Of a stretch of DNA of 64,000 nt, positions 40,852 through 64,000 are shown one piece after another (the first letter of the stretch is position 1; each line of letters begins with the position of its first letter). The translations under genes were made by a program, and so were the position numbers. Source of the DNA: Diacronema lutheri (Eukaryota; Haptophyta; Pavlovophyceae; Pavlovales; Pavlovaceae); NCBI GenBank assembly GCA_019448385.1, contig JAGTXO010000022.1, positions 193,501-257,500 of the forward strand, written 5' to 3'. Under the pieces are notes generated by a model. The model saw nothing but the letters and a program-made list of their open reading frames with translations. It searched no databases and had not been told where the DNA came from.

Positions 40852-41044
40852 GCCATGTTGGGACATACTCGACGGGGGCAAGGGGGGGGGGGGGGGGGGG
40901 GGTGGGGGGGAGGGTGCAGGCGCTCGCGAGGCGCGACGCGGACGGCTGGCCGGCGCACGCGCGCGCGGCGCACGCGCGCGCCTTCTACCGCGGCGTGGAG
41001 CTCGGCATGCACGCGACGCGCGCCATCGTCGACGCGCGCCACGT
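40852..41044 (+). pseudogene. C-sequence fragment with poly-G breakpoint
   Basis: Directly after the ankyrin gene stop. tcgcgccatgttgggacata matches 53137 onward; then a 21-bp poly-G (40882-40902) replaces part of the sequence; then the C block FYRGVELGMHATRAIVDARH appears before it joins RT2 near 41045. Confidence 0.6.
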
Positions 41045-41990
41045 CAGTGGGCTCGCCAATATGGACACGTCGTCGGCGAAAGCGACAATGCGCACGGACT
41101 GCGAGAGGTGGCTCGGAGCGAAGACGCTGTGCAGCGCGGCGCAGAAGAACGGCATGCCCTCGACCGGGCCCTGCTGTTCGCCGTGCACGCATGCGTAGAG
41201 CGCAATCGTGCGTCATCGCCCCAGACCAAAGACGATGGGGCTCGCGCGTGGGTGCACGCGAGCGCGCGGACGCGCGGCGGATTGTCGCTTGCGGCGAGCG
41301 CAGCGATGATCGCGCCGCGCTCTACGTTGTTGACGAACAGCTTTCGAGCGAGGTGACGACCTTCTTGGCTACCGGTCTCGCAAAGGAGTCGGTGAAGCTC
41401 GGCGCCCGGAGCATTGCGTTGTGCCAACCGCCGGGGCCTGGCGCGACGTGAGGGTCGAGCTTGCGTAGAACCTGCACGAGCGTGGCCTCGTCGATCGTGA
41501 TCCGGTCGATGGTCTGGTCTGCGATGTAGTCGGCGCGAATCGGCGCGCGGCTCTGCGGGTGCTTTTGCGCGAGCTCGGCAAGGATGCTCTGGTCGCGGAG
41601 GTCGGATGGGCCGGAGGACGTGGGGAATCTGTGATCGATCAGCCTGACGGCGACTTACAATCGCACAGCGTCTGTACGAGCTGGGGCGCCGAGCCCGCAC
41701 CGTTGAGCACGACGACCAGATCGACGGTGGGCACGCGCCGACGCCGCAGAGCCGCGCGCCCGGCCGGCGGCACGCCAGCGAGCACGATGCCAAAGACATT
41801 CGCGTCCTCGCGCCGCGCGAGCGTGACAGGAAAGCCTCGAGCGAGCGAGGCGAGCAGGTCGAGAGCGGAGGTGTGGCGGATCTTTGCGACGTGGTCCTGC
41901 GCGACGCCGTTGCCCGCCGTGGAGGGCGGCCGGGATCGGGCGCACACCTGAGAACCGAGAGTCCGGCGCTTTCCATCCTGTGTACAATGT
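41045..41990 (-). mobile_element. Reverse-transcriptase fragment RT2, decayed
   Basis: Minus-strand blocks: GEQQGPVEGMPFFCAALHSV and IVAFADDVSIL (about 41170-41055; the similarity stops right after this motif, at the junction with the C fragment), NNVERGAIIAALAASDNPP, and upstream DLLASLARGFPVTLARREDA with VDLVVVLNGAGSAP (about 41860-41690). Blocks are in different frames. Antisense to the adjacent F-box/ankyrin gene. Confidence 0.65.
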
Positions 41991-42112
41991 CCGGGGCCGC
42001 CCCGGGGCTTCACGCTTGGCGAAGAGCGCGCGTCACAAAAGGGCGGCGGTCGTCGAGTCAACCTCGCAGCGCGTGCCACTGCTCCGCTTGCCGAACGCGC
42101 GTCTGCCCGCTG

Positions 42113-43201
42113 ATGCTGACGAGGCGCGCGACGGCGCGCGCGCGCGCCGAGCGCGCGGACATACTCATGCGGCTGCCCGCCGACGTGCTCGCGCGCGTTG
42201 GCACGCTCATCGGGCCGGACGACGCGCTGTGCATGCGCGCGTCGTGCCGCGCCTTTGCGCATGCGATTCCCGCACCGACGCGCACGCCGCGCTCTGCGAT
42301 GCTGCGCTCGCGCGCGCTCGCCGCTTGGGCGTGGGATCTTTCCGGCTTCCGCTCGGCCGCGTTTCCCGCGCGGGAGCAGATCACGCTGTGCGCGCTGGCG
42401 GCGAGGGCTGGGTGCGTCGGCTCGATCACGTGGCTGCGCGAGCGTGGCTGCAAGTGGGACAGCAACACGTGCTCCGAAGCAGCTCTGGGTGGCCACTTGG
42501 AGGTGCTGCAGTGGGCGCGAGAGCACGGCTGCGAGTGGGACAGCTGCACGTGCTCCGCTGCAGCTGAGAATGGCCACCTCGAGGTGCTGCAGTGGGCGCG
42601 AGAGCACGGCTTCGAGTGGGACAGCAACACGTGCTCCGCTGCAGCTTACGGTGGCCAACTCGAGGTACTGCAGTGGGCACGCGAGCACGGCTGTGAGTGG
42701 GACAGCAGCACGTGCTCCTGTGCAGCTCAGGATGGCCATCTCGAGGTGCTGCAATGGGCACGCAATCACGGCTGCAAGTGGGACAGGAGCACGTGCTTCT
42801 ATGCAGCTTGGGGTGGCCACCTTGCGTTGCTGCAGTGGGCGCGAGAGCACGGCTGCGAGTGGAACAGCGACACGTGCTCTGCTGCAGCTGCAAGTGGCCA
42901 CCTCGAGGTGCTGCAGTGGGCGCGAGAGCACGGCTGCGAGTGGGACAGCAGCACGTGCTTCGCTGCAGCCAAGGCTGGCCACCTCGAGGTGCTGCCGTGG
43001 GCGCGAGAGCACGGCTGCGAGTGGGACAGCGGCACGTGCACGGGTGCAGCTAAGGGTGGCCACCTCGAGGTGCTGCAGTGGGCACGAGAGCACGGCTGCG
43101 AGTGGGATGCGGAGGATTGCTTTAAGGAGGCGCTCTATTCTGGCAACTTGCACGTGGTCGACTGGGTGCACGCGCAGCTGGCGCTGCAGCAGCTGATGTG
43201 A
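42113..43201 (+). CDS. F-box/ankyrin-repeat protein, copy A2 (intact)
   Basis: 362 residues from ATG 42113 (MLTRRATARARAERADI). The frame is open 240 bp further upstream, but other copies share the 42113 start. An F-box-like segment lies at residues about 18-52 (MRLPADVLARVGTLIGPDDA ... SCRAFAHAI). A linker AWDLSGFRSAAFPAREQI and a first WLRERGCKWD unit lead into eight 27-residue repeats of the type GHLEVLQWAREHGCEWDSCT. The cap is AEDCFKEALYSGNLHVVDWV. The DNA period is 81 bp. No disabling mutation seen, unlike copies A4/A5. A role as SCF ubiquitin-ligase substrate adaptor is possible from domain logic only. Confidence 0.75.
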   Translation: MLTRRATARARAERADILMRLPADVLARVGTLIGPDDALCMRASCRAFAHAIPAPTRTPRSAMLRSRALAAWAWDLSGFRSAAFPAREQITLCALAARAGCVGSITWLRERGCKWDSNTCSEAALGGHLEVLQWAREHGCEWDSCTCSAAAENGHLEVLQWAREHGFEWDSNTCSAAAYGGQLEVLQWAREHGCEWDSSTCSCAAQDGHLEVLQWARNHGCKWDRSTCFYAAWGGHLALLQWAREHGCEWNSDTCSAAAASGHLEVLQWAREHGCEWDSSTCFAAAKAGHLEVLPWAREHGCEWDSGTCTGAAKGGHLEVLQWAREHGCEWDAEDCFKEALYSGNLHVVDWVHAQLALQQLM

Positions 43202-43234
43202 CAATACGGCACCCTCCCCCAATCCACCTCTGAA

Positions 43235-46080
43235 TCGGCCAGATGCGAGCTGTCCAGGTTGCTGCTGCTGCGCCTTTGCGTACCCATACTCGATGCCCGT
43301 GCAATTCAATCCGTAACAAGGAAACCGGGCCGAACCTGGAACCTGGGTTTCCGTCTTACAAAGCCCCGACGTTGCTCGTCGGCGTCAGGGCGCGCAGCCG
43401 CATTCGCACCGCGCCCTGCCGCCCTGCGCATCACAGCCGGCAGCGAGCAGCGGCTCGACCGCGCAACCGACCATGGCGCCATCCACTCCGCGCGCGTGTA
43501 CGCACGGCCACCCGACGGCCGCCGCACGCATACTTGCCGCACGTGCAGCTGCTGCAGGCGCCGACGCCGCACGCGCCAGCCGCGCATGCCACGCCGGGCA
43601 CGGCCTTTCGCCTGCGCGCGCCGTTGCCTCGCCGCCGCTATGCCGCGCCGCGCGCGCGGCGGCTGAGAGCTTGTTTCGAACGCCGCGCGCTGCGCCCGCC
43701 ATCTTACGCCGCGCCGCGCGAGCGAGCGCCGCCGCCCCGTCTGGCGCGCGCGCCGAGTGGCGCGCGCGCAGCCGAGGCTGGCCGATGCGACGGCGGCGGC
43801 CATCGTCTGGGAGACAATTTCGACGGCGAGGAGCGTAGCGGACGCGAACGCCCCGCACGCGAACGACGCGACGAGCGCGGCAATGAAAGCCGTGACGGGC
43901 GTGGCGGGCGCTGCTGGCGCCGCGACGGCGCGCAGCCGCGCGCCGTGCGCGCGCGCGCCGTCGACCAACGCGCCGCCGGCGGCGGGCGCGACGCGCGCGG
44001 TCGCGCTGGCGTGTGCGCCGCGCGCGGTCGTGCGCACAGGCAGCGTGCCGCCATCTCCACGCGCAACCTGCCCGTCGCCGCGCCGCCGCCCGCCGCCGCG
44101 CCGCCGCCCGTCGCCGCGCCGCCGCCGCCGCCACCGGCGGCGCTCAGCCGCCGGCAGCACGTCGGCGCGGGCGGCAGCGCGACAAGCCGGCGGCTCGCGG
44201 CCATCGCACGGCGGCAGCGCGGCGTGCGCGCGCCGCCGCTTGCCGCGCGATTGCTCGCCACGCTGCCGCCACCGCGACGCGACGGCCTCGCGCGCACGAG
44301 CAAGCAGGCGCGCGCGAGGCGCAACGCGGACGGCCGGCCGGCGCACGCGCGAGCGGCCAACGCGCGCGCGCACCTTCTACCGCGGCGTGGAGCTCGGCGT
44401 GCACGCGACGCGCGCCGTCGTCGACGCGCGCCACGCCGACCTGCCGCAGGCCGTGTTCGTGGCGGAGGCGCGGGCGATCGTCGCGCGCTCCGCCGGCGGC
44501 GGCGCGCTGCTCGCGCCGGACGACGTGCGCGACCTGTGCGACGCGCAGACGGACGCCGATCGCGCTGCGATCTGGGCGGCGGTGGGCACACACGACGCGA
44601 CGCGCATCTTCGCGCTCGTCACGCGCAACGCGAGCTTGGCGGGCGCGGCGCTGCTCGTGCTGCACACGCCGGCGGACGCGCCGGCGCGCGCGCTCGGGCT
44701 CGTGGCGACGCGCTCGCGCGCGTCGTCGACGGGCGCGCCGCGCGACGCGCACGTGGCGCTGGTGCAGCGGTCGGACGTGCTGACGGGCGCGATCGCCGCG
44801 GCGCGAGGCGCGCCGCCGCTCGAGCTCGAGCTCGCGCTCGCGCCCGAGCTGCAGAGCGCGTGCAACGCGCGTGCGGCCGCGCTGCTCTGCCTGCAGGCCG
44901 TCGCGGACGCGAGCGACCGTCCCGCCGCTGAGGACGCGCTGGCCGCGCTCGACGACGCGCGCGGCATCGACCGGCACTGCCACGCCGTCCGGCAGCAGAT
45001 CGAAGCGAAGCTCGCGTGGCGGCGCGCCGACGGCGGCGCCGACGGCGCGCCCGCGCGCGCGCCTGCCGCCGCACCGCCGGCGTGTGCGCCGGCGCACGCT
45101 GCCGGCGAGGCTGAAGTCGACCAGGCGATCGTCACGCGGGTGCGCGACGCGCGTCGCGCGTGGGCGACGACTGGCACCGCGCCCGGCGCGGCGGTGCTCG
45201 ACGACGCCTGCGCCGCGTACACGGCGCGCGCACGCGCGCGCAAGGACGCGCGCACGGCGCTGGGCCCGATGCGCGCGGCCGAGCTGCTCGCCGCGGCCGC
45301 GCGCGGCCGAGCCGACGGGGCGGATGCCGCAAGCGCGCTGCTCGGCGGCACGCCGCGCCTGCTCGTCGTGCTCCTCTGCGTGCCCGTCGCCGCGCCGTCC
45401 GGCGAGCCGCCGCGCCAGGTGGGGCTGCTCGTCGCCGACCGGCCGACGGATGACTCGCGCCCGGCCGCGCTCGTGCGCTACGACTTTGCGCCGCTCGACG
45501 CGGACGTGGCCGTCGCGGTCGGCGCGCATGCCGTCGCGCTGGCCGGTGCAATCTGGCCGCTGCTCGCGGCCGAGGGGAAGCCGCAGCCATCGCCCGTCGT
45601 GCGCTCGCAGCCGCGCGGCGGCGACGATGGCGCGCGGGCGCTCGCAACGTTCGCGTGCCTCGACGCGCTGATGACCGCCAGCGTCGGCGCGCACGGCCTC
45701 GCGGGCGGCGCGGGGATGCTGCCCGCGCTGGTCGCGCGAGGCGCCGCGGCCGCCCAGCGCGAGCGGCAGCTGCGCGCGGCCGCCGAGAGGCAGGGCGGCA
45801 TGGTGGCTGGGTGGCCGGACACGGGCGTGAGCGCGGCGGGCGCGAGCGTCGACGAGGAGGCGGGCACGTGCGAGGTCGAGTTTTTGGCGAGCGCCGCAAG
45901 GCGGGCAAGAGAGGCACGTCCCAGTTCCGGATCAGGTAGCTGGGCTACGACGAGAGCGCCGACACGTGGGAGCCCGAGGGCAACCCGACAAGGGCCTCGC
46001 AGGGCGCGTTCGCGATGTCCGAGAATCTCGCCAACCAGGCTAGCGAGCAGTTTCATTGGGGAGGCAGTGTGCGAGAAAAT
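43235..46080 (+). pseudogene. Chromodomain-containing C sequence, copy C2, 3'-truncated
   Basis: Starts after the A2 stop with the shared non-coding leader (ccagatgcgagctgtccagg). The N-terminal Arg/Ala/Pro-rich region has a 4-bp length change against C1 just before TFYRGVELGVHATRAVVDAR (about 44382), so the halves are out of frame. From there one frame runs through LLLVLHT-like ALLVLHTPADAP, ELELALAPELQSACNAR, EAEVDQAIVTRVRDA, LLVVLLCVPVAAPSGEPP, ALVRYDFAPLDADVAV and GASVDEEAGTCEVEFL into the chromodomain start. The rest of the chromodomain is one frame back and has an in-frame stop (atcaggtagctgg, 45933-45945). The copy ends near 46080 at a poly-G tract. I recognise no family besides the chromodomain. 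Confidence 0.6.
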
Positions 46081-46086
46081 AGTCCT

Positions 46087-46139: not shown

Positions 46140-47325
46140 GGGGGAGGGGTGGGGATGGGCAGCCGCCTGCGCGCAGGGCATCTCGTCAGGCACCTCGCCG
46201 CGTGGGAAGGCGGAGGCGATCGCGCGCATTGTCGCGTCGGCATCCGGATGCGAGGCCCACTTGGACTTGTGCGGCTGAAGGTCGAGATGAAGCCTGATGC
46301 GAAGCGCGTCGCCGAGCGGGCCCACGACGGCATGCACCTGGGTCGGCTCGCCCACAATGGACACGTCGTCCGCGAAAGCGGCACGTGGCTTGGGGCGAAG
46401 ACGCTGTGCAGCGCGGCGCAGAAGAACGGCATGCCCTCGACCGGCCCCTGCTGTACGCCCTGAACGCACGCGTGGGGCGCAATCTTGTGTCCTCGCCCCT
46501 GACCAAAGACGATGGGGCTCGCGCGGGGGTGGGCACCGTAACGGCGAGGCGCGCGAGCGCGCGGACGCGCGGCAGATCGTCGCTTGCGGCGAGCGCTACG
46601 ATGATTGCGCCGCGCTCCACGGTGTTGAAAGTTGTTGACGAACAGCCCTCCGTACATCTTGAGCAAGGTTGCGACCTTGGCAGCTTGGCTACCGGGCTTG
46701 CTAATGAGTCGGTGAAGCTCAGCGCCCGGGGCATTGCGTTGTTCCAACCGCCGGGGCCTGGCGCGACGTGTGGGTCGAGTTTGCGCAGCACCTGCACGAG
46801 TGTTGCCTCAACAGTCATGATCCGGTCGATGGTCTGGTCTGCGATCAAGTCGGTGCGAATTGGCGCGCGGCTCTGCGGGTGCTTTTGCGCGAGCTCGGCA
46901 AGGATGCTCTGGTCGCGGAGGTCGGCTAGGCCGAAGGACGTTGGGAGCCTGCCCGCGCGGCCAAAGTCGCCTTGGTCGATCAGCGTGACGGCGACATACA
47001 TTCGCACAGCGTCTGCACGAGCTCGGGCGCCGAGCCCGCACCGTTGAGCACGACGACAAGATCGACGGTGGGCACGCGCCGACGCCGCAGAGCCGCGCGC
47101 ACGGCCGGCGGCAGGCCGACGAGCACGAAGCCAACGATATTCGCGTCCTCGCGCCACGCGAACGTGACAGCAAAGCCGCGAGCGAGCGAGGAGAGCAGGT
47201 CGTCAGCGGAGGTATGGCGAAGCTTTGCGACGTGGTCCTGCGCGACGCCGTTGCCCGCCGTGGACGGCGGCCGGGATCGGGCGCACAACTTGAGAACCGA
47301 GAGTCCGGCGCTTTCCATCCTGTGT
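46140..47325 (-). mobile_element. Reverse-transcriptase fragment RT3, decayed
   Basis: Minus-strand blocks in several frames: DLIADQTIDRIMTVEATLVQ and KLDPHVAPGPGGWNNAMPRA (about 46850-46730), GPVEGMPFFCAALHSVFAP, AFADDVSIVGEPTQVHAVVG and LDLQPHKSKWASHPDADA (about 46270-46230). Upstream, VDLVVVLNGAGSAPELVQTL lies near 47060. A 20-30 bp loss near 46385 breaks the frame before the ADD motif. Most complete RT copy besides RT1, still dead. Confidence 0.65.
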
Positions 47326-47453
47326 ACAATGTCCGGGCCGCCCCGGGGCTTCACGCTTGGCGAAGAGCGCGCGTCACAAAAGGGCGGCGGTCGTCGAGTC
47401 AACCTCGCAGCGCGTGCCACTGCCCCGCTTGCCGAACGCGCGTCTGCCCGCTG

Positions 47454-49028
47454 ATGCTGACGAGGCGCGCGACGGCGCGCGCGCGCGCCGAGCGCGCGGA
47501 CATACTCATGCGGCTGCCCGCCGACGTGCTCGCGCGCGTCGGCACGCTCATCGGGCCGGACGACGCGCTGTGCATGCGCGCGTCGTGCCGCGCCTTTGCG
47601 CATGCGATTCCCGCACCGACGCGCACGCCGCGCTCTGCGATGCTGCGCTCGCGCGCGCTCGCCGCTTGGGCGTGGGATCTTCCCGGCTTCCGCTCGACCG
47701 CGTTTCCCGCGCGGGAGCAGATCACGCTGTGCGCGCTGGCGGCGAGGGCTGGGTGCGTCGGCTCGATCACGTGGCTGCGCGAGCGTGGCTGCAAGTGGGA
47801 CAGCAACACGTGCTCCGAAGCAGCTATGGGTGGCCACCTTGCGTTGCTGCAGTGGGCGCGAGAGCACGGCTGCGAGTGGGACAGCTGCACGTGCTCCGCT
47901 GCGGCTGCGGGTGGCCACCTTGCGGTGCTGCAGTGGGCGCGAGAGCACGGCTGCGAGCGGGACAGCCGCACGTGCTGTGTTGCAGCCAAGAATGGCCACC
48001 TGGAGGTGCTGCAGTGGGCGCGAGAGCACGGCTGCGAGTGGGACAGCTGCACGTGCTCCGCTGCGGCTGCGGGTGGCCATCTTGCGGTGCTGCAGTGGGC
48101 GCGAGAGCACGGCTGCGAGTGGAACAGCGACACGTGCTCGCGTGCAGCTAAGGGTGGCCACCTCGAGGTGCTGCAGTGGGCGCGAGATCACGGCTGCGAG
48201 TGGGACAGCAACACGTGCTCAAATGCAGCCCAAGGTGGCCACCTTGCGGTGCTGCAGTGGGCGCGAGAGCACGGCTTCGAGTGGGACAGCAACACGTGCT
48301 CCGCTGCAGCTTACGGTGGCCAAATCGAGGTACTGCAGTGGGCACGCGAGCACGGCTGCGAGTGGGACAGCTGCACGTGCTCCTCTGCAGCTCGGGCTGG
48401 CCATTTCGAGGTGCTGCAGTGGGCGCGAGAGCAAGGCTGCGAGTGGGACAGCCGCACGTGCTTCGCTGCAGCTGAGAATGGCCACCTTGCGGTGCTACAG
48501 TGGGCACGAGAGCACGGCTGCGAGTGGGACAGCGAAACGTGCTTCGTTGCAGCTGAGAATGGCCACCTCGAGGTGCTGCAGTGGGCGCGAGAGCACGGCT
48601 GCGAGTGGGACAGCCGCACGTGCGTCTTAGCAGCTCGGGCTGGCCACCTCGAGGTGCTGCAGTGGGCGCGAGAGCACGGCTGCGAGTGGGACAGCAACAC
48701 ATGCTTGGCTGCAGCTGAGAATGGCCACCTCGAGGTGCTGCAGTGGGCGCGAGAGCACGGCTGCGAGTGGGACAGCCGCACGTGCTCCGCTGCAGCTGCG
48801 AATGGCCACCTCGAGATGCTGCAGTGGGCGCGAGAGCACGGCTGCGAGTGGAACAGCAGCACGTGCTTGTGTGCAGCTGAGGGTGGCCACCTCGAGGTGC
48901 TGCAGTGGGCACGCGAGCACGGCTGCGAGTGGGATGCGGAGGATTGCTTGGAGGAAGCGCTCTCTTCTGGCGACGCGCGTGTGGCCTTTTGGGTTGCAGC
49001 GCAGCTGGCGCTGCAGCAGCTGCCGTAA
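47454..49028 (+). CDS. F-box/ankyrin-repeat protein, copy A3 (intact, long)
   Basis: 524 residues from ATG 47454. Same F-box-like N-terminus as A2, then WLRERGCKWD and fourteen 27-residue repeats, ending AEDCLEEALSSGDARVAFWV and AAQLALQQLP. It has six more repeats than A2, so repeat number changes between copies by whole 81-bp units. Variable positions in each repeat cluster around the segment after CEWDS (CT, RT, NT, ET) and the two residues before GHL (EN, AG, KG, RA), the usual pattern of recognition repeats. No stop or frameshift seen. Flanked by RT3 (antisense, upstream) and C3 (downstream). Confidence 0.75.
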   Translation: MLTRRATARARAERADILMRLPADVLARVGTLIGPDDALCMRASCRAFAHAIPAPTRTPRSAMLRSRALAAWAWDLPGFRSTAFPAREQITLCALAARAGCVGSITWLRERGCKWDSNTCSEAAMGGHLALLQWAREHGCEWDSCTCSAAAAGGHLAVLQWAREHGCERDSRTCCVAAKNGHLEVLQWAREHGCEWDSCTCSAAAAGGHLAVLQWAREHGCEWNSDTCSRAAKGGHLEVLQWARDHGCEWDSNTCSNAAQGGHLAVLQWAREHGFEWDSNTCSAAAYGGQIEVLQWAREHGCEWDSCTCSSAARAGHFEVLQWAREQGCEWDSRTCFAAAENGHLAVLQWAREHGCEWDSETCFVAAENGHLEVLQWAREHGCEWDSRTCVLAARAGHLEVLQWAREHGCEWDSNTCLAAAENGHLEVLQWAREHGCEWDSRTCSAAAANGHLEMLQWAREHGCEWNSSTCLCAAEGGHLEVLQWAREHGCEWDAEDCLEEALSSGDARVAFWVAAQLALQQLP

Positions 49029-49049
49029 TACGGCACCCTCCCCCATCCC

Positions 49050-52000
49050 ACCTCTCACTCGCCCGGTGCGAGCTCTCCGATGCCCGTGCAATTCAATCCG
49101 TTAAACCGGGGCCGAACCTGGGTTTCCGTCTTTCAAAGCCCCCACGTTGCTCGTCGGCGTCAGGGCGCGCAGCCGCATTTCTATCGCGCCCCGCCGCCCT
49201 GCGCATCACCGCCGGCGGCGAGCAGCGGCTCGATCGCGCAACCGACCACGCCGCCATCCACTCCGCGCGTGTACGCACGGCCGCCCGACGGCCGCCGCAC
49301 GCGCACTTGCCGCACGTGCAGCTGCTGCAGGCGCCGACGCCGCACGCGCCAGCCGCGCCTGCCACGCCGGGCACGGCCCTTTGCCTGCGCGCGCCGCCGC
49401 CTCGCCGCCGCCACGTTGCGCCGCGCGCGTGGCGGCTGAGAACCCGTTTTGAACGCCGCGCGCTACGCCCGCCACCCACGCCGCGCCGCGCGAGCGCGCG
49501 CCGCCGTGTGGGAGGCGATTTCGACGGCGAGGAGCGCAACGAACGCGAACGCCCCGCACGCAACGACGCGATGAGCGCGGTAGTGGAAGCCTTGAGGGGC
49601 GTGGTGGACGCCGCTGGCGCTGCGACGGCGCACAGCCGCGCGCCCTTCGCGCGCGGCGCGCCGTCGACCAACGCGCCGCCGCCGGCGGGCGCGGCGCGCG
49701 CGGTCGCGCTGGCGTGTGCGCCGCGCGCAGCCGTGCGCACAGGCAGCGCATCGCCATCTCCACGCGCAACCTGCCCGCCGCCGCGCCGCCGCCCGCCGCC
49801 GCCGCGCCGCCGCCGCCACCGGCGGCGCTCAGCCGCTGGCAGCACGTCGGCGCGGGCGGCAGCGCGGCGGGCCGGCAGCTCGCGGCCATCGCACGGCTGC
49901 AGCGCGGCGTGCGCGCGCCGCCGCCCGCCGCGCGATTCCTCGTCACGTTGCCGCCACCGCCACGCGACGGCCTCGCGCGCACGAGCAAGCAGGCGCGCGC
50001 GAGGCGCAACGCGGACGGCCGGCCGGCGCACGCACGCGCGGCCAACGCGCGCGCCTCTTCTACCGCGGCGTGGAGCTCGGCGTGCACGCGACGCGCGCCA
50101 TCGTCGACGCGCGCCACGCCGACCTGCCGCAGGCCGTGTTCGTGGCGGAGGCGCGGGCGATCGTCGCGCGCTCCGCCGGCGGCGGCGCGCTGCTCGCGCC
50201 GGACGACGTGCGCGACCTGTGCGACGCGCAGACGGACGCCGATCGGGGCTGCGATCTGCGCGGCGGTGGGCGCGCACGACGCGACGCGCATCTTCGCGCT
50301 CGTCACGCGCAACGCGAGCTTGGCGGGCGCGGCGCTGCTCGTGCTGCACACGCCGGCGGACGCGCCGGCGCGCGCGCTCGGGCTCGTGGCGACGCGCTCG
50401 CGCGCGTCGTCGTCGGGCGCGCCGCGCGACGCGCACGGGGCGCTGGTGCAGCGGTCGGACGTGCTGACGGGCGCGATCGCCGCGGCGCGAGGCGCGCCGC
50501 CGCTCGAGCTCGAGCTCGCGCTCGCGCCCGAGCCGCAGAGCGCGTGCAACGCGCGTGCGGCCGCGCTGCTCTGCCTGCAGGCCGTCGCGGACGCGAGCGA
50601 CCGTCCCGCCGCTGAGGACGCGCTGGCCGCGCTCGACGACGCGCGCGGCATCGACCGGCACTGCCACGCCGTTTGGCAGCAGATCGAGGCGAAGCTCGCG
50701 TGGCGGCGCGCCGACGGCGCCGACGGCGCGCCCGCGCGCGCGCCTGCCGCCGCACCGCCAGCGTGTGCGCCGGCGCACGCTGCCGGCGAGGCTGAAGTCG
50801 ACCAGGCGATCGTCACGCGGGTGCGCGACGCGCTGCGCGCGTGGGCGACGACTGGCAGCGCGTCCGGCGCGGCGGTGCTCGACGACGCCTGCGCCGCGTA
50901 CACGGCGCGCGCACGCGCGCGCAAGGACGCGCGCACGGCGCTGGGCCCGACGCGCGCGACCGAGCTGCTCGCCGCGGCCGCGCGCGGCGGAGCCGACGGG
51001 GCGGATGCCGCGCGCGCGCTGCTCGGCGGCACGCTGCGCCCGCTCGTCGTGCTCCTCTGCGTGCCCGTCGCCGCGCCGTCCGGCGAGCCGCCGCGCACGG
51101 TCGGGCTGCTCGTCGCCGACCGGCCGACGAACGACTCGCGCCCGGCCGCGCTCGTGCGCTACGACTTTGCGCCGCTCGACGAGGACGTGGCCGTCGCGGT
51201 CGGCGCGCATGCCGTCGCGCTGGCCGGTGCGATCTGGCCGCTGCTCGCGGCCGAGGGAAGCCGCTGTCAACGCCCGTCGTGCGCTCGCAGCCGCGCGGCG
51301 GCGACGATGGCGCGCGGGCGCTCGCGACGTTCGCGTGCCTCGACGCGCTGATGACCGCCAGCGTCGGCGCGCACGGCTTCGCGGGCGGCGCGGACATGCT
51401 GTCCGCGCTGGTCGCGCGAGGCGTCGCGGCCGCCCAGCGCGAGCGGCAGCTGCGCGCGGCCGCCGAGAGGCTGAGCGGCACGATCGCTGGGTGGCCGGAC
51501 ACGGGCGTGAGCGCGGCGGGCGCGAGCGTCGACGAGGAGGCGGGCACGTACGAGGTCGAGTTTTTTGTGAGCGCCGCAAGGCGGGCAAGAAAGGCACGTC
51601 CCTGTTCCGGATCAGGTGGCTGGGCTACGACGAGAGCGCCGACACGTGGGAGGCCGAGGGCAACCTCGACAAGGGCCTCGTCGCCCAGTTCCGCGCGGCG
51701 CGACACGGGCAGGAGCGGCGCGCGGGCGGATCGGGCAGCGGCAGCGGCGGCGCAAGCGCGGCGTCGGCGTCGGCGTCGGCACCGCTTCGCGCGCACGGCG
51801 TGTCGGGCGCCGCGGGCCAGCGCGGCGCGGCGAAGGCCGCCGCGGGCGCGCGCGGCGTCGAGAGCGCGCGCGTGGACGAGCCCGCTACGCCGAGCGTGCG
51901 CGCCGCCGGCGGCGCGACGGCGCGCACGCGCGGCAGCGTGCTCCCGGACTTCGTGGTCAAGCGCTCGACGCTCAACGCGGGGCCGCAGGCGGTGACGGCG

Positions 52001-52978: not shown

Positions 52979-53136
52979 GGGTTCACGTCAGAGTAGTCGA
53001 TGACTCGGGCGCAGCATGACAGCATGTCACCCAAGACGCCCGAGCTGTCTTGGACTCGGCGCGTTCGTCACCGCCAGGTACTGAGTGCACCAGTCGCCTG
53101 CCGCTCCCAAGGACATGCGCTCTGGCCGAATCCAAC

Positions 53137-53375
53137 TCGCGCCATGTTGGGACATACTCGACGGCGGCAAGCAGGCGCGCGCGAGGCGCGACGCGGACGG
53201 CCGGCCGGCGCACGCGCGCGCGGCCAACGCGCGCGCCTTCTACCGCGGCGTGGAGCTCGGCTTGCACGCGACGCGCGCCATCGTCGACGCGCGCTACGCC
53301 GACCTTCTGCAGGCCGGCGGCGGCGCGCCGCTCGCGCCGGACGGCGTGCGAGCTCTACCGAGCCCCTGACGTGGC
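53137..53375 (+). pseudogene. Short C-sequence fragment between C3 and RT4
   Basis: tcgcgccatgttgggacata, then GVELGLHATRAIVDARYADL (about 53250-53310), then a jump to GGGAPLAPDGVR. It is an internally deleted C start that joins RT4 near 53376. The 158 bp before it (52979-53136) match nothing I recognise. Confidence 0.55.
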
Positions 53376-54325: not shown

Positions 54326-54448
54326 GTCCGGGCCGCCCCGGGGCTTCACGCTTGGCGAAGAGCGCGCGTCACAAAAGGGCGGCGGTCGTCGAGTCAACCT
54401 CGCAGCGCGTGCCACTGCCCCGCTTGCCGAACGCGCGTCTGCCCGCTG

Positions 54449-56023
54449 ATGCTGACGAGGCGCGCGACGGCGCGCGCGCGCGCCGAGCGCGCGGACATAC
54501 TCATGCGGCTGCCCGCCGACGTGCTCGCGCGCGTCGGCACGCTCATCGGGCCGGAGGACGCGCTGTGCATGCGCGCGTCGTGCCGCGCCTTTGCGCATGC
54601 GATTCCCGCACCGACGCGCACGCCGCGCTCTGCGATGCTGCGCTCGCGCGCGCTCGCCGCATAGGCGTGGGATCTTCCCGGCTTCCGCTCGGCCGCGTTT
54701 CCCGCGCGGGAGCAGATCAAGCTGTGCGCGCTGGCGGCAAGGGCTGGGTGCGTCGGTTCGATCACGTGGCTGCGCGAGCGTGGCTGCAAGTGGAATAGCG
54801 ACACGTGCACCAGAGCAGCTTGGGCTGGCCACCTGGAGATGCTGCAGTGGGCGCGAGAGCACGGCTGCGATTGGGGCAGCTGCACGTGCTCCGCTGCAGC
54901 TGAGAATGGCCACCTTGCGGTGCTGCAGTGGGCGCGAGAGCACGGCTGCGAGTGGGACAGGCGCACGTGCTGTGTTGCAGCCAAGGGTGGCCACCTCGAG
55001 GTGCTGCAGTGGGCACGCGAGGACGGCTGCGAGTGGGACAGCTGCACGTGCTCCTTTGCAGCTCGGGCTGGGCACCTCGAGGTGCTGCAGTGGGCGCGAG
55101 AGCACGGCTGCGAGTGGGACAGCCGCACGTGCTTCGCTGCAGCTGAGAATGGCCACCTTGCGGTGCTGCAGTGGGCACGAGAGCACGGCTGCGAGTGGGA
55201 CAGCGGCACGTGCTCCTCTGCAGCTCGGGCTGGCCACCTCGAGGTGCTGCAGTGGGCGCGAGAGCACGGCTGCGAGTGGGACAGCCGCACGTGCTTCGCT
55301 GCAGCTGAGAATGGCCACCTTGCGGTGCTGCAGTGGGCGCGAGAGCACGGCTGCGAGTGGAACAGCGACACGTGCTCTGCTGCAGCTGCAAGTGGCCACC
55401 TTGCGGTGCTGCAGTGGGCGCGAGAGCACGGCTGCGAGTGGGACAGCGGCACGTGCTCCTCTGCAGCTCGGGCTGGCCACCTCGAGGTGCTGCAGTGGGC
55501 GCGAGAGCACGGCTGCGAGTGGGACAGCGAAACCTGCTTCGCTGCAGCTTGGGGTGGCCAACTCGAGGTACTGCAGTGGGCACGCGAGCACGGCTGCGAG
55601 TGGAGCAGCCGCACGTGCTCCTATGCAGCTTGGCGTGGCCACCTCGAGGTGCTGCAGTGGGCGCGAGAGCACGGCTGCGAGTGGGACAGCTACACGTGCT
55701 CCGCTGCAGCTGAGGGTGGCCACCTTGCGGTGCTGCAGTGGGCACGAGAGCACGACTGCGAGTGGGACAGCAACACGTGCTCGGATGCAGCTGAGAATGG
55801 CCACCTCGAGGTGCTGCAGTGGGCGCAAGAACACGACTGCGAGTGGGACAGCGGCACGTGCTCCGCTGCAGCTCGGAATGGCCACCTCGAGGTGCTGCAA
55901 TGGGCACGCGAGCACGGCTGCGAGTGGGATGCGGAGGATTGCTTTGAGGAAGCGCTCTCTTCTGGCAACGCGCGTGTGGCCGATTGGGTTGCAGCGCAGC
56001 TGGCGCTGCAGCAGCTGCCGTAA
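54449..56023 (+). pseudogene. F-box/ankyrin-repeat gene, copy A4, nonsense codon
   Basis: Same start, total length (1575 bp) and ends as A3, but TAG at 54662-54664 interrupts the linker (RALAA-stop-AWDLPGF), where A2/A3 have TGG. A restart at ATG 54839 would give 394 residues of repeats without the F-box. Fourteen 27-residue repeats follow the first WLRERGCKW unit; the cap is AEDCFEEALSSGNARVADWV. The repeat order differs from A3. Confidence 0.75.
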
Positions 56024-56044
56024 TACGGCACCCTCCCCCATCCC

Positions 56045-59000
56045 ACCTCTTGAATCGGCCAGATGCCCGTGCACGGTTTACCGGGCCGAACCTGGGTTTC
56101 CGTCTTTCAAAGCCCCGACGTCGCTCGTCGGCGTCAGGGCGCGCGGCCGCATTTGCACCGCGCACCGCCGCCCTGCGCATCACCGCCGGCAGCGAGCAGC
56201 GGTTCGACCGCGCAACCGACCACGCCGCCATCCACTTTGCGCGCGCGCACGCACGGCCGCCCGACGGCCGCCGCACGCGCACTTGCCGCACGTGCAGCTG
56301 CTGCAGGCGCCGACGCCGCACGCGCCAGCCACGCCGAACACGGCCCTTCGCCTGCGCGCGCCGCCGCCTCGCCGCCGCCACGCCGCGCCGCGCGCGCGGC
56401 GGCTGAGAGCCCGTTTGAACGCCGCGCGCTGCGCCCGCCATCCCACGCCGCGCCGCGCGAGCGCGCGCCGCCGTGTGGGAGGCGATTTCGACGGCGAGGA
56501 GCGCAACGAACGCGAACGCCCCGCACGCGAACGACGCGACGAGCGCGGCAGTGCAAGCCGTGAGCAGCGTGGTGGACGCCACTGGCGCTGCGACGGCGCG
56601 CAGCCGCGCGCGATGCGCGCGCGTCGTGCCGTCGACCAACGCGCCGCCGCCGGCGGTCGCGGCGCGCGCGGTCGCGCTGGCGTGTGCGCCGCGCGCAGCT
56701 GTGCGCACAGGCAGCGCGCCGCCATCTCCACGCGCCGCCTCCCGCCGCCGCGCCGTCCCCCCGCCGCCGCGCCGCCGCCGTCGCCACCGGCCGCGCTCAG
56801 TCGCTGGCAGCACGTCGGCGCGGGCGGCAGCGCGGCAGGCCGGCGGCTCGCGGCCATCGCACGGCGGCAGCGCGGCGTGCGCGCGCCGCCGCCCGCCGCG
56901 CGATTGCTCGCCACGCTGCCGCCACCGCCACGCGACGGCCTCGCGCGCACGAGCAAGCAGGCGCGCGCGAGGCGCAACGCGCACGGCCGGCCGGCGCACG
57001 CGCGCGCGGCCGCGCCGCCGCCACCGGCGGCGCTCAGCCGCTGGCAGCACGTCGGCACGGGCGGCAGCGCGGCAGGCCGGCGGCTCGCGGCCATCGCACG
57101 GCGGCAGCGCGGCGTGCGCGCGCCGCCGCCCGCCGCGCGATTGCTCGCCACGCTGCCGCCACCGCCACGCGACGGCATCGCGCGCACGAGCAAGCAGGCG
57201 CGCGCGAGGCGCATCGCGGACGGCCGGCCGGCGCACGTGCGCGCGGCCAACGCGCGCGCCTTCTACCGCGGCGTGGAGCTCGGCGTGCACGCGACGCGCG
57301 CCATCGTCGACGCGCGCCACGCCGACCTGCCGCAGGCCGTGTTCGTGGCGGAGGCGCGGGCGATCGTCGCGCGCTCCGCCGGCGGCGGCGCGCTGCTCGC
57401 GCCGGACGACGTGCGCGACCTGTGCGACGCGCAGACGGACGCCGATCGGGGCTGCGATCTGCGCGGCGGTGGGCGCGCACGACGCGACGCGCATCTTCGC
57501 GCTCGTCACGCGCAACGCGAGCTTGGCGGGCGCGGCGCTGCTCGTGCTGCACACGCCGGCGGACGCGCCGGCGCGCGCGCTCGGGCTCGTGGCGACGCGC
57601 TCGCGCGCGTCGTCGTCGGGCGCGCCGCGCGACGCGCACGGGGCGCTGGTGCAGCGGTTGGACGTGCTGACGGGCGCGATCGCCGCGGCGCGAGGCGCGC
57701 CGCCGCTCGAGCTCGAGCTCGCGCTCGCGCCCGAGCCGCAGAGCGCGTGCAACGCGCGTGCGGCCGCGCTGCTCTGCCTGCAGGCCGTCGCGGACGCGAG
57801 CGACCGTCCCGCCGCTGAGGACGCGCTGGCCGCGCTCGACGACGCGCGCGGCATCGACCGGCACTGCCACGCCGTTTGGCAGCAGATCGAGGCGAAGCTC
57901 GCGTGGCGGCTTGCCGACGGCGGCGCCGACGGCGCGCCCGCGCGCGCGCCTGCCGCCGCACCGCCAGCGTGTGCGCCGGCGCACGCTGCCGGCGAGGCTG
58001 AAGTCGACCAGGCGATCGTCACGCGGGTGCGCGACGCGCTGCGCGCGTGGGCGACGACTGGCACCGCGTCCGGCGCGGCGGTGCTCGACGACGCCTGCGC
58101 CGCGTACACGGCGCGCGCACGCGCGCGCAAGGACGCGCACACGGCGCTGGGCCCGAGACGCGCGGCCGAGCTGCTCGCCGCGGCCGCGCGCGGCGGAGCC
58201 GACGGGGCGGATGCCGCGCGCGCGCTGCTCGGCGGCACGCCGCGCCTGCTCGTCGGGCTCCCCTGCGTGCCCGTCGCCGCGCCGTCCGGCGAGCCGCCGC
58301 GCCCGGTGGGGCTGCTCGTCGTTGACCGGTCGACGGACGACTCGCGCCCGGCCGCGCTCGTGCGCTACGACTTTGCGCCGCTCGACGCGGACGTGGCCGT
58401 CGCGGTCGGCGCGCATGCCGTCGCGCTGGCCGGTGCGATCTGGCCGCTGCTCGCGGCCGAGGGGAAGCCGCAGCCATCGCCCGTCGTGCGCTCGCAGCCG
58501 CGCGGCGGCGACGATGGCGCGCGGGCGCTCGCAACGCTCGCGTGCCTCGACGCGCTGATGACCGCCAGCGTCGGCGCGCACGGCCTCGCGGGCGGCGCGG
58601 GGATGCTGCCCGCGCTGGCCGCGCGAGGCGTTGCGGCCGCTCAGCGCGAGCGGCAGCTGCGCGCGGCCGTCGAGAGGCAGGGCGGCACGGTCGCTGGGTG
58701 GGCGGGACACGGGCGTGAGCGCGGCGGGCGCGAGCGTCGACGAGGAGGCGGGCACGTACGAGGTCGAGTTTTTTGCGAGCGCCGCAAGGCGGGCAAGAAA
58801 GGCACGTCCCTGTTCCGGATCAGGTGGCTGGGCTACGACGAGAGCGCCGACACGTGGGAGGCCGAGGGCAACCTCGACAAGGGCCTCGTCGCCCAGTTCC
58901 GCGCGGCGCACGACGAGCAGGAGCGGCGCGCGGGCGGATCGGGCAGCGGCAGCGGCGGCGGCGGCGCGGGCGCGGCGTCGGCGTCGGCATCGCTGCACAC

Positions 59001-60194
59001 GCACGGCGTGTCGGGCGCCGCGGGCAAGCGCGGCGCGGCGGGTGCCGCGGCGGGCGCGCGTGACGCCGCGGGCGCGCTCGCGCCGAGCGTTCCCCGCGCG
59101 CGCGGCGTCGAGAGCGCGCGCGTGGACGAGCCCGCTGCGCCGAGCGCGGCAGCGTGCTCCCGGGCTTTGTGGTCAAGCGCTCGACGCTCAACGCGGGGCC
59201 GCAGGCGGTGACGGCGCAGCCCGGTGCGCGGAAGGAGCTGCGGCGCCTCGTGACGGCCGTGCACAGGCTCACGACACAGGCGTACCGCGTCATCCACAAG
59301 GGGGTGCGCGACGAGGCTACAGTGGCGAGCGCGCAGGCCGCCGGCGCGGCGTCGGGCGGCCTGTCGATCAGCGTGCACACGTTGACCACGATGGACAAGA
59401 AAACCGTCGGCGCGATCTTCTCGGCCATCGGCTGGCACACGGACAAGAGCACGTACTACGGTGCAGCGTGCCAAGGCAAGCCCGCCGAGCAAGCCGCCGC
59501 GCAGACCAAGGCGGCGACGGCTCGCGCCGTCGGCGAGATGGCCGAGGGCGTCCATCCCGTCTGCGCGGTGGGCCTCACGAAGATCCTCGAGGAGGAGGCG
59601 ACGCAGGTGTCCACCGCGTGCCTGATGCACCCATCGCGCGTCGTGGACGGGCTGCTCCGCGACGTCGTCCGCGCGGCAGTCGAGCGCGACGAGGCGCTCG
59701 TCGCGCAGCCCGAGATGCAGCGAAACGCGCGCGTGCGCGAGCTGTGCGCGTAGCTGCTGCGCGGCAACGTGGCGGGCACGCGCGCCAACTGTCCCGCCGC
59801 GCTCGACCGCCACCTGCCCGACATGGTCCTCCACGGCATCGACTACAAGTGCACGCCCACGCCCAGGTGGAGCTACGACCGGCACACGATGCGCTCCTTC
59901 GTCGTGCAGATCCGCGACATGCAGCACGTGGCCGAGGGGCAGGCGCTGCTCTGCCGGCTCGCGCGCCTGTACACACAGCAGCTTGCGCGCCAGGCGGAAG
60001 GCGGCGGCGGCGAGGCGAGCGCCGTCGGTGCGGTCGAGGCGGGCCACGCGCTGACCGGCGGCAGCGAGAACGACGCCCTCATCTTTGGCGACGAGGACGC
60101 TGCGGGCGACGCCGACAGCGCGCGCGACGGCACGGGCGACGCCGGCGCGCGCTCGGTCGATGACACCGAGGAATCACTCGAGAACCTTGACTGA
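56045..60194 (+). pseudogene. Chromodomain-containing C sequence, copy C4, broken
   Basis: Same architecture as C3. It shares the one-base insertion at the gatcggggctgcg site (about 57448). An extra G (tgggtgggcggg, about 58696) shifts the frame ahead of the chromodomain; TYEVEFF and, one frame back, CERRKAGKKGTSLFRIRWLG (about 58755-58830) are both present. About 30 bp are missing near 59147 relative to C3. The C-terminal block ends at the same TAG (59752-59754), followed by DRHLPDMVLHGIDYKC and the captured ankyrin-gene tail to 60194. The N-terminus contains a 237-bp in-frame duplication. Confidence 0.65.
56796..57269 (+). repeat. 237-bp direct duplication inside C4
   Basis: The segment starting ctcagtcgctggcagcacgt at 56796 recurs from 57033 (ctcagccgctggcagcacgt) with a few substitutions. 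237 is a multiple of three, so the open frame is kept. Confidence 0.85.
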
Positions 60195-60352: not shown

Positions 60353-60591
60353 TCGCGCCATGTTGGGACATACTCGACGGCGGCAAGCAGGCGCGCGCGA
60401 GGCGCGACGCGGACGGCCGGCCGGCGCACGCGCGCGCGGCCAACGCGCGCGCCTTCTACCGCGGCGTGGAGCTCGGCTTGCACGCGACGCGCGCCATCGT
60501 CGACGCGCGCTACGCCGACCTTCTGCAGGCCGGCGGCGGCGCGCCGCTCGCGCCGGACGGCGTGCGAGCTCTACCGAGCCCCTGACGTGGC
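60353..60591 (+). pseudogene. Short C-sequence fragment, duplicate of 53137-53375
   Basis: Identical by eye to the fragment 7,216 bp to the left; part of the tandem duplication. Confidence 0.55.
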
Positions 60592-61541
60592 TCGGGGCGA
60601 AGACGCTGTGCAGCGCGGCGCAGAAGAATAACATGCCCTCGACCGGCCCCTGCTGTACGCCCAGCACGCATGCGTAGGGCGCAATCGTGCGACCAAAGAC
60701 GATGGGGCTCGCGCAAGGGTGAGCATCGTAACGGCGAGGCGCGCGAGCGCGCGGACACGCGGCGGATTGTCGCTTGCGGCGAGCGCGGCGACGATCGCGC
60801 CGCGCTCCACGGTGTTGAAAGCGGGCAGGTCCGCGCGGACACGCCTCTGTTGACGAACAGCTCTCCGAACAATCTTGAGCAAGGTGACGACCTTGGGAGC
60901 TTGGCTACCGGTCTCGCAAAGGAGTCGGTGAGGCTCAGCGCCCGGAGTAACGCGTTGTTCCAACCGCCGGGGGCTGGCGCGACGTGTGGGTCGAGCTTGT
61001 GTAGCACCTGCACGAGCGTGGCCTCGTCGATCGTGATCCGGTCTATGGTTTGGTCTGCGATGTAGTCGGCGCGAATCGGCGCGCGTCTCTGCGGGTGCTT
61101 TTGCGCGAGCTCGGCAAGGATGCTCTGGTCACGGAAGTTGGCTAGGCCGGAGGACGTGAGGAGCCTGCGCGGCAAAAGTCGTCTTGGTCGATCAGCCTGA
61201 CGGCGACTTACAATCGCACAGCGTCTGTACGAGATAAGGCGCCGAGCCCGCACTGTTGAGCACGACGACCAGATCGACGGGGGGCGCGCGCCGACGCCGC
61301 AGAGCCGCGCGTCCGGCCGGCGGCACGCCGGTGAGCACGAAGCCAAAGATATCCGCGTCCTCGCGCCGCGCAAACGTGACAGCAAAGCCGCGAGCGAGCG
61401 AGGCGAGCAGGTCGAGAGTGGAGTTGTGGCGCAGCTTTGCGACGTGGTCCTGCGCGACGCCGTTGCCCGCCGTGGAGGGCGGCCGGGATCGGGCGCACAC
61501 CTGAGATTCGAGAGTCCGGCGCTTTCCATCCTGTGTAGAAT
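60592..61541 (-). mobile_element. Reverse-transcriptase fragment RT5, duplicate of RT4
   Basis: Same blocks and the same truncation before the YxDD-type motif as RT4, offset 7,216 bp. Confidence 0.65.
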
Positions 61542-61664
61542 GTCCGGGCCGCCCCGGGGCTTCACGCTTGGCGAAGAGCGCGCGTCACAAAAGGGCGGCG
61601 GTCGTCGAGTCAACCTCGCAGCGCGTGCCACTGCCCCGCTTGCCGAACGCGCGTCTGCCCGCTG

Positions 61665-63239
61665 ATGCTGACGAGGCGCGCGACGGCGCGCGCGCGCGCC
61701 GAGCGCGCGGACATACTCATGCGGCTGCCCGCCGACGTGCTCGCGCGCGTCGGCACGCTCATCGGGCCGGAGGACGCGCTGTGCATGCGCGCGTCGTGCC
61801 GCGCCTTTGCGCATGCGATTCCCGCACCGACGCGCACGCCGCGCTCTGCGATGCTGCGCTCGCGCGCGCTCGCCGCATAGGCGTGGGATCTTCCCGGCTT
61901 CCGCTCGGCCGCGTTTCCCGCGCGGGAGCAGATCAAGCTGTGCGCGCTGGCGGCAAGGGCTGGGTGCGTCGGTTCGATCACGTGGCTGCGCGAGCGTGGC
62001 TGCAAGTGGAATAGCGACACGTGCACCAGAGCAGCTTGGGCTGGCCACCTGGAGATGCTGCAGTGGGCGCGAGAGCACGGCTGCGATTGGGGCAGCTGCA
62101 CGTGCTCCGCTGCAGCTGAGAATGGCCACCTTGCGGTGCTGCAGTGGGCGCGAGAGCACGGCTGCGAGTGGGACAGGCGCACGTGCTGTGTTGCAGCCAA
62201 GGGTGGCCACCTCGAGGTGCTGCAGTGGGCACGCGAGGACGGCTGCGAGTGGGACAGCTGCACGTGCTCCTTTGCAGCTCGGGCTGGGCACCTCGAGGTG
62301 CTGCAGTGGGCGCGAGAGCACGGCTGCGAGTGGGACAGCCGCACGTGCTTCGCTGCAGCTGAGAATGGCCACCTTGCGGTGCTGCAGTGGGCACGAGAGC
62401 ACGGCTGCGAGTGGGACAGCGGCACGTGCTCCTCTGCAGCTCGGGCTGGCCACCTCGAGGTGCTGCAGTGGGCGCGAGAGCACGGCTGCGAGTGGGACAG
62501 CCGCACGTGCTTCGCTGCAGCTGAGAATGGCCACCTTGCGGTGCTGCAGTGGGCGCGAGAGCACGGCTGCGAGTGGAACAGCGACACGTGCTCTGCTGCA
62601 GCTGCAAGTGGCCACCTTGCGGTGCTGCAGTGGGCGCGAGAGCACGGCTGCGAGTGGGACAGCGGCACGTGCTCCTCTGCAGCTCGGGCTGGCCACCTCG
62701 AGGTGCTGCAGTGGGCGCGAGAGCACGGCTGCGAGTGGGACAGCGAAACCTGCTTCGCTGCAGCTTGGGGTGGCCAACTCGAGGTACTGCAGTGGGCACG
62801 CGAGCACGGCTGCGAGTGGAGCAGCCGCACGTGCTCCTATGCAGCTTGGCGTGGCCACCTCGAGGTGCTGCAGTGGGCGCGAGAGCACGGCTGCGAGTGG
62901 GACAGCTACACGTGCTCCGCTGCAGCTGAGGGTGGCCACCTTGCGGTGCTGCAGTGGGCACGAGAGCACGACTGCGAGTGGGACAGCAACACGTGCTCGG
63001 ATGCAGCTGAGAATGGCCACCTCGAGGTGCTGCAGTGGGCGCAAGAACACGACTGCGAGTGGGACAGCGGCACGTGCTCCGCTGCAGCTCGGAATGGCCA
63101 CCTCGAGGTGCTGCAATGGGCACGCGAGCACGGCTGCGAGTGGGATGCGGAGGATTGCTTTGAGGAAGCGCTCTCTTCTGGCAACGCGCGTGTGGCCGAT
63201 TGGGTTGCAGCGCAGCTGGCGCTGCAGCAGCTGCCGTAA
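61665..63239 (+). pseudogene. F-box/ankyrin-repeat gene, copy A5, same nonsense codon as A4
   Basis: Identical by eye to A4, including TAG at 61878-61880, so the mutation preceded the 7,216-bp duplication. Restart possible at ATG 62055. Confidence 0.75.
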
Positions 63240-63260
63240 TACGGCACCCTCCCCCATCCC

Positions 63261-64000
63261 ACCTCTTGAATCGGCCAGATGCCCGTGCACGGTTTACCGG
63301 GCCGAACCTGGGTTTCCGTCTTTCAAAGCCCCGACGTCGCTCGTCGGCGTCAGGGCGCGCGGCCGCATTTGCACCGCGCACCGCCGCCCTGCGCATCACC
63401 GCCGGCAGCGAGCAGCGGTTCGACCGCGCAACCGACCACGCCGCCATCCACTTTGCGCGCGCGCACGCACGGCCGCCCGACGGCCGCCGCACGCGCACTT
63501 GCCGCACGTGCAGCTGCTGCAGGCGCCGACGCCGCACGCGCCAGCCACGCCGAACACGGCCCTTCGCCTGCGCGCGCCGCCGCCTCGCCGCCGCCACGCC
63601 GCGCCGCGCGCGCGGCGGCTGAGAGCCCGTTTGAACGCCGCGCGCTGCGCCCGCCATCCCACGCCGCGCCGCGCGAGCGCGCGCCGCCGTGTGGGAGGCG
63701 ATTTCGACGGCGAGGAGCGCAACGAACGCGAACGCCCCGCACGCGAACGACGCGACGAGCGCGGCAGTGCAAGCCGTGAGCAGCGTGGTGGACGCCACTG
63801 GCGCTGCGACGGCGCGCAGCCGCGCGCGATGCGCGCGCGTCGTGCCGTCGACCAACGCGCCGCCGCCGGCGGTCGCGGCGCGCGCGGTCGCGCTGGCGTG
63901 TGCGCCGCGCGCAGCTGTGCGCACAGGCAGCGCGCCGCCATCTCCACGCGCCGCCTCCCGCCGCCGCGCCGTCCCCCCGCCGCCGCGCCGCCGCCGTCGC
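63261..64000 (+). pseudogene. C sequence, copy C5, cut by the window end
   Basis: Leader and Arg/Ala/Pro-rich N-terminal part, identical by eye to 56045-56784. Confidence 0.6.

Follow-up and report, generated by a model that had tools for sequence, protein, structure and literature searches.

Two described systems resemble the genes analysed here. Passages of Dyrka et al. 2014 (PMC4986451) describe fungal NOD-like receptors (NLRs) whose ankyrin, WD or TPR repeats are highly conserved internally, and place diversifying selection in the ankyrin repeats at few positions, in the inner helices and the hairpin of the concave side. Passages of PMC12062965 present the F-box A1/A2 adaptors of Caenorhabditis as a large, expanding family with positive selection on the substrate-binding domain. 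We analysed a stretch of 64,000 nucleotides from the haptophyte Diacronema lutheri (the window), corresponding to positions 193501-257500 of contig JAGTXO010000022.1 (called C78), in an assembly of 43,492,796 bases and 103 contigs. C78 contains eight copies, A0 to A7, of a gene called A that encodes a candidate F-box domain followed by ankyrin repeats. Five of them (A0-A4) lie inside the window, accompanied by a reverse transcriptase-like (RT-like) relic and by a chromodomain-related piece called C.

As far as those passages go, A is similar to the fungal NLRs in its near-identical tandem repeats, its varying repeat number and its diversifying selection at few repeat positions, with the caveat that concave placement in A is deduced indirectly and that the ratio of nonsynonymous to synonymous differences (pN/pS) is weaker on C78 alone (1.15). 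It differs in its partner domain, an F-box, and in its repeats of 27 residues. No NACHT or NB-ARC domain was detected in the A1 and A2 frames in scans at E<=0.01 and E<=1. The internal repeat identity averaged 0.792 at the protein level over the 17 genes with at least 5 repeats, 2 of these 17 being just over 0.85, and the family mean (79%) is below the >85% identity that serves as repeat criterion in fungal NLRs. Since no NOD domain was found and the mean internal identity is below 85%, A is not a fungal-type NLR. The Caenorhabditis adaptors, as portrayed in the same passages, share with A a large F-box family and selection on the substrate-binding part, but their substrate domain is FTH where A has ankyrin repeats, and their F-box is under purifying selection whereas that of A is mildly constrained. 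In a literature search of partial coverage, judged mostly by title, no title was found on this F-box/ankyrin family or on a chromodomain-Fanzor fusion; the terms ankyrin, F-box, telomer, tandem, transpos and retro gave no hit in the main text of the genome paper (PMC8379373).

We propose, with a probability of about two in three, that A forms a local cluster of a genome-wide, birth-and-death F-box/ankyrin family whose members would be Skp1-cullin-F-box (SCF)-type substrate receptors with diversifying binding surfaces. The F-box would dock the protein on Skp1, the ankyrin stack would grip a target via the variable face of helix 1, and the bound target would be ubiquitinated. As recognition receptors are expected to be, they would be selected for novelty of the binding surface, the likeliest targets being pathogen, non-self or selfish-element proteins. 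New specificities would come from mutation, repeat gain or loss and gene duplication. The cluster would have grown through local duplication with copies often breaking, and C, a piece related to a Fanzor-bearing mobile element, would be a passenger like the RT-like relic.

Evidence for selection comes from the repeats. A set of 214 repeats was assembled from 20 copies (A4 omitted), and the 212 repeats without a stop were used. Entropy reached 3.06 bits at repeat position 7, 2.95 at position 14, 2.06 at position 11, 1.74 at position 10 and 1.65 at position 15, and the eight most variable positions all fall within 3-15. The pooled pN/pS was 2.31 at positions 7/10/11/14, on one face of helix 1, and 0.04 at positions 8/9/12/13, on the other face. 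It was 0.20 and 0.33 for two position sets of helix 2, 1.15 at positions 3/5/6 and 3.71 at position 15. Taken over the entire repeat, the ratio was 0.67. Under resampling, the variable set ranged over 1.8-3.7 and the scaffold over 0.14-0.28. Codon positions 1 and 2 of a few fixed codons account for most of the changes. Because the positions had been selected by their variability, we cross-checked them between data sets: positions picked on C78 and tested elsewhere gave a pN/pS of 2.81 (1.9-4.8). The ratio at 7/10/11/14 was 2.36 in copies reaching their native tail versus 2.19 in the others. Designed ankyrin proteins are randomised at positions similar to the variable ones found here.

Across the family, A consists of an N-terminal domain followed by 1 to 29 near-identical ankyrin-type repeats. 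Both the sequence and the fold are those of ankyrin repeats, in a shorter variant with a period of 27 residues versus 33 in the PF00023 model. The F-box profiles PF12937 and PF00646 matched 8 and 4 of 26 members, respectively, at a loose limit of E<=5 (best E 3.8e-4 and 2.9e-4). A structure model built from 26 diverse members was better than a first model with an unreliable N-terminus. The Foldseek search with the N-terminal model returned 18 rows, none at E<=0.001, three of which were Skp1/F-box complexes. The family can thus be weakly assigned to the F-box proteins. The genome also encodes Skp1 (C9:861871; E=2.2e-27) and cullins (best E 7.1e-91). No viral relative of A was confirmed in IMG/VR, using two peptide patterns and 21 stretches.

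Several observations weigh against the proposed reading. Positions picked elsewhere and tested on C78 gave a pN/pS of only 1.15 (0.90-1.56), and choosing positions by variability inflates the value of 2.31. The repeats recombine and one gene contains an internal block duplication, so that repeats are not independent. Exposure of the variable face, and its concave placement, are deduced from helix positions and general knowledge of the ankyrin fold, exposure not having been computed. The N-terminal domain is under mild constraint, with a pN/pS of 0.70 (0.49-1.05; 20 copies), reaching 0.98 among 7 C78 copies, and its F-box part gave 0.91 (0.42-2.28). The F-box counts in the family depend on the loose E<=5 limit. 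The Pfam F-box was absent in the first four members scanned, including A2, a profile of the N-terminal domain compared with PDB sequences gave six rows (four ankyrin, two aminotransferase) with no F-box, and the N-terminal model resembles F-box structures weakly (best E 2.6). Finally, A5-A7, which stand without C, may have lost it as an alternative to never having had it. A deeper comparison by divergence class (300 pairs from 25 of the 26 members, one being dropped as it had no matching DNA row) gave 0.55-0.87 outside the F-box and 0.68-1.06 within. The N-terminal domain being mildly constrained, selection appears better supported on the repeats than on the F-box.

In one rival reading, the array is under relaxed constraint and mostly neutral, duplication or gene conversion keeps its copies similar, and its repeat variation reflects lost constraint at surface positions. 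It fits an N-terminal pN/pS near 1 in the C78 copies, the value of 1.15 on C78 alone and a repeat pattern that is the same in copies reaching and missing the native end. Under the same scoring dead sequence gave 0.84-0.98 for C and 0.71-1.20 for RT. It also fits the state of the genes: the native C-terminal tail is reached in frame by 11 of the 21 copies examined, three of these 11 having no ATG at the aligned start, and missed by the other 10. Three further fetched copies, outside both this count and the repeat set, also stop short (11/24). However, relaxation predicts a ratio near 1, against the 2.3-2.8 measured, and leaves the 0.04 on the opposite face of helix 1 unexplained; we consider this reading unlikely.

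The organisation of the window is as follows.

14131..15035, minus strand: A0, inverted F-box/ankyrin copy with the N-terminal domain and 7 repeats, after which the frame is lost (broken)
15049..16323, plus strand: RT-like relic of the inverted unit, weakly RVT_1-like (RVT_1 E=0.03 in 15300-16600)
16326..19291, minus strand: C0, diverged internal fragment related to a ~21.6 kb Fanzor-like element (93.9% to one element copy)
41047..42099, minus strand: RT-like relic upstream of A1
42113..43201, plus strand: A1, F-box/ankyrin gene of 362 codons with 8 repeats and the native C-terminal tail in frame (Ank_4 E=4.3e-24)
44060..45984, plus strand: C1, shorter fragment of the same element part (94.8%)
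46157..47440, minus strand: RT-like relic upstream of A2
47454..49028, plus strand: A2, F-box/ankyrin gene of 524 codons with 14 repeats, the native C-terminal tail in frame (Ank_4 E=4.1e-38) and an ankyrin fold
47787..48934, plus strand: A2 repeat array, 14 copies of an 81-bp (27-residue) repeat
49674..52763, plus strand: C2, fragment of the same element part (91.6%)
51584..51694, plus strand: chromodomain inside C2 (PF00385 E=1.1e-6)
52764..56880, plus strand: tract identical to 59980-64096, which ends 96 bases past the window (0 mismatches in 1685+1575+857 aligned bases)
53369..54435, minus strand: RT-like relic upstream of A3
54449..56023, plus strand: A3, 14 repeats, frame interrupted by TAG at codon 72 (broken in its present state)
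56882..59979, plus strand: C3, fragment of the same element part (91.6%)
60585..61651, minus strand: RT-like relic upstream of A4
61665..63239, plus strand: A4, identical to A3, also with TAG at codon 72

A first, sequence-only reading of the window had described four RT-A-C units at its right end plus an inverted unit at 14.1-20.0 kb, in a fixed order, and had concluded that the set multiplied as one block by segmental duplication. Self-comparison recovered the A starts it gave (42113, 47454, 54449 and 61665), an inverted A copy at 15035 on the minus strand, the RT-like stretch directly upstream of A on the opposite strand in 5/5 window copies, and C downstream of A0-A4 in the same orientation as A, the inverted unit included. 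The chromodomain of C and the varying repeat number (8 internal 81-bp repeats in A1, 14 in A2) were likewise found as described. Three right-end units are complete, one with the shorter C1, but the fourth is cut off, as C4, the partner of A4, begins at 64098, outside the window. The ankyrin half of the F-box/ankyrin label holds by Pfam matches, and the F-box appears in relatives but not, as a Pfam match, in A2 itself.

The fixed order holds inside the window but not beyond. Reading onward along C78 in window coordinates (values >64000), the array continues with A5 at 68266 and A6 at 71810; a minus-strand copy, A7, is found at C78:299968. The upstream RT-like stretch is present in 8/8 copies on C78, but no C was found downstream of A5, A6 and A7 in the contiguous C78 stretch searched, up to C78:305000. 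The A7 flank resembles an array unit up to window position 49773, near the start of C in the A2 unit, then diverges; past this point it is without element sequence, with only short low-complexity-like matches elsewhere. The absence of C at A5-A7 may be a loss or may mean that it was never gained.

The one-block model further assumes that ordinary selection keeps A open while C and RT decay. Within the window, only A1 and A2 (2/5) reach the native end, and on C78 these two and A7 (3/8); A0, A3, A4, A5 and A6 fall short of it, so the claim that the A genes stay open fails. At 73% GC (68-79% in 4-kb steps of the window), open frames alone are little evidence, as A3 itself is overlapped by antisense frames of 927 and 1200 codons. 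Selection on A may nevertheless hold, through the repeat positions and not for the reason of open frames.

The ages of the three parts are also unequal. RT copies differ by 6.8-9.3% of substitutions (6 copies, 15 pairs; A4 and A6 copies left out), C copies by 0.8-4.0% (5 copies, 10 pairs, nine of them at 2.7-4.0%), and the first, N-terminal 327 bp of A by 3.4% on average (range 0.9-4.9%; 7 copies, 21 pairs; A4 left out). Upstream of A, the nearest 150 bp differ by 3.7% and the preceding 300 bp by 8.2%. C2 and C3 differ by 2.8%, C3 and C4 by 0.88%, and 4,117 aligned bases of the A3 and A4 units show no difference. On this alignment, the identity between 52764-56880 and 59980-64096 is the most recent duplication or conversion. 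With 7-9% between RT copies against mostly 3-4% between C copies, the RT-A unit probably predates C; the simplest history would be that C arrived later, with local duplication or conversion ongoing, and an uneven history of conversion could alternatively have produced the unequal ages. Compared with a relative on C60, 6 of 7 RT copies on C78 have a ~290-base gap in common and one is without even more, which we read as damage older than the growth of the cluster, although C60 may instead carry an insertion. Gene conversion of A, suggested by its low silent divergence, was dropped as an idea because the silent divergence of C is equally low.

Thus the three parts seem not to have multiplied together as a single block, while local block duplication is supported. 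The one-block model draws on the order within the window, on the identical A3 and A4 units and on the possible loss of C from A5-A7, but 3/8 C78 units are without C, RT copies have diverged about twice as far as those of C and A, five A copies miss the native end and long frames are uninformative at this GC content. We regard it as slightly less plausible again than relaxation of the array.

The RT label is itself weak. One match to RVT_1 was obtained in 1/9 frames near A0-A2, at E=0.03 and 14.5 bits, below the cut-off of 29.6. Nothing was detected with RVT_1 in five of six frames of 49000-54500, nor in five frames of the C60 and A7 relatives, and the other RT features were recognised by eye alone. 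No intact RT was found in the relics scanned, and the RT-like relic looks like a passenger. Within the A2-unit relic, 47002-47260 is also a 259-base dispersed repeat, ~86% identical, inside ~1.5 kb of repeated sequence. A nearby RT could in principle alter the variable codons by targeted mutagenesis, in the manner of a diversity-generating retroelement, given the RT-like relic beside A on C78 and changes concentrated in codon positions 1 and 2 of few fixed codons. Yet the relics look damaged with no RVT_1 match above cut-off, the full RT query is confined to C78 among the candidates scored while A is widespread, and selection accounts for the same pattern, making this mechanism scarcely credible.

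The search with the A N-terminus, in which all 95 first-look candidates were scored, gave 63 matches, 57 without and 6 with a stop in the matched stretch; 8 are on C78 and 55 elsewhere, the number of loci being slightly below 63 since some rows are pieces of one gene. C was found at 40 places of at least 1 kb among the 40 candidates scored out of 400, 5 on C78 and 35 on other contigs, the nearest of these 35 to any A match being on C63, ~11 kb apart. The RT search (43 rows from the 40 candidates scored out of 143) placed 9 rows on C78; C60 (3), C64 (1) and C103 (2) have partial rows, and 28 rows consist of the 259-base repeat alone. In 11 fetched off-contig A stretches, the similarity to the array unit covers A and 0-190 bp upstream (~450 bp in two copies), extends ~90-100 bp downstream of A in 6 of the 11, and includes no C. 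A, C and RT thus mostly lie apart elsewhere, as far as scored, contrary to a set kept together genome-wide; this is an outcome that the first reading had itself named as counting against it.

These data also bear on the idea that A is cargo spread by a mobile element, either the RT or the C element. RT-like sequence stands beside A in every C78 unit and in parts near A on C60, C64 and C103, and A genes on C103 flank at least 11 kb belonging to one copy of the large element, a proximity missed by the scoring of the C search. But the 11 off-contig stretches share just A and short flanks, none with C, and the C78 RT copies share the ~290-bp gap relative to the C60 copy, so that we find cargo very improbable.

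Some A copies lie near contig ends. One is at C86 position 778, within ~800 bases of a contig end built of CCCTCA repeats; among the first 100 of 1,548 places with the CCCTCA pattern, C5 has it at its right end and C17 at its left end, oriented as in telomeres. Further A matches are few kb from contig ends, e.g. on C65, C30, C40 and C42. On C37, the identical scores and ~12 kb spacing of other ankyrin stretches, near 42.9, 55.0 and 67.1 kb, suggest more tandem arrays. Elsewhere in the window, a 44-bp minisatellite occupies 30309-31106 (18 copies, 95% matches), and ordinary neighbour genes were recognised in 4/9 frames scanned, within 35485-39396, 27643-29553, 10543-13500 and 147-1988: a TRM tRNA methyltransferase whose frame also contains a beta-helix region, Sec1, a domain of sodium/calcium exchangers and a helicase C-terminal domain.

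C corresponds to the ~16.1-19.3 kb part of a ~21.6 kb element (one copy, C27:146428-168022), at 92-95% identity, and looks like a passenger in the A cluster. The element copies are far closer to each other: with 30 of 1344 candidates scored, 29/30 rows, counting the place of the query itself, matched a 5-kb segment in full at 99-100%. The element encodes a chromodomain (PF00385, E=4.4e-13) and, downstream past a change of frame, perhaps due to an intron, a Cas12f1-like/TnpB zinc-binding domain (PF07282, 28.4 bits on a sub-stretch for a cut-off of 26.3, but 25.2 bits, below cut-off, on the whole frame), whose PDB sequence match to Cas12f1 has E=0.21. By this domain the element would be Fanzor/TnpB-like, with putative RNA-guided nuclease activity, and both domains possibly form one fused protein. 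No terminal inverted or long direct repeats were found by local alignment of one copy, no target duplications were seen by eye in the few copies fetched with both ends, and scans for further element genes in three stretches (L008, L024 and, on its minus strand, L004) gave nothing useful. Passages of Bao and Jurka 2013 (PMC3627910) and of PMC10711439 report Fanzor/TnpB-like nucleases in eukaryotic transposable elements, a likeness to the zinc-binding domain found here. The element differs from the published ones in having a chromodomain directly upstream, in the same gene region, and in its ~21.6 kb without a detected terminal repeat. Term searches of both articles yielded nothing on a chromodomain beyond a reference-list word, and three passages of PMC6338049 give no description of a chromodomain-Fanzor fusion. 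The parent element of C, large and present in many near-identical copies, places a chromodomain beside a Fanzor-like domain.

Returning to the proposed F-box/ankyrin receptors, a wider reading is tentative: the family might be a germline-encoded, fast-diversifying recognition repertoire of this single-celled haptophyte, with ankyrin modules of selected faces on E3-ligase adaptors, serving innate immunity or self/non-self discrimination via protein destruction and not via NLR signalling. To our knowledge, recognition receptors of this kind are poorly known in haptophytes. Fungal NLRs are known to have modular recognition repeats under selection, and nematode F-box families to have substrate domains under selection. 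If the reading is true, a haptophyte family joining both designs would be a testable candidate for virus or non-self recognition in unicellular algae.

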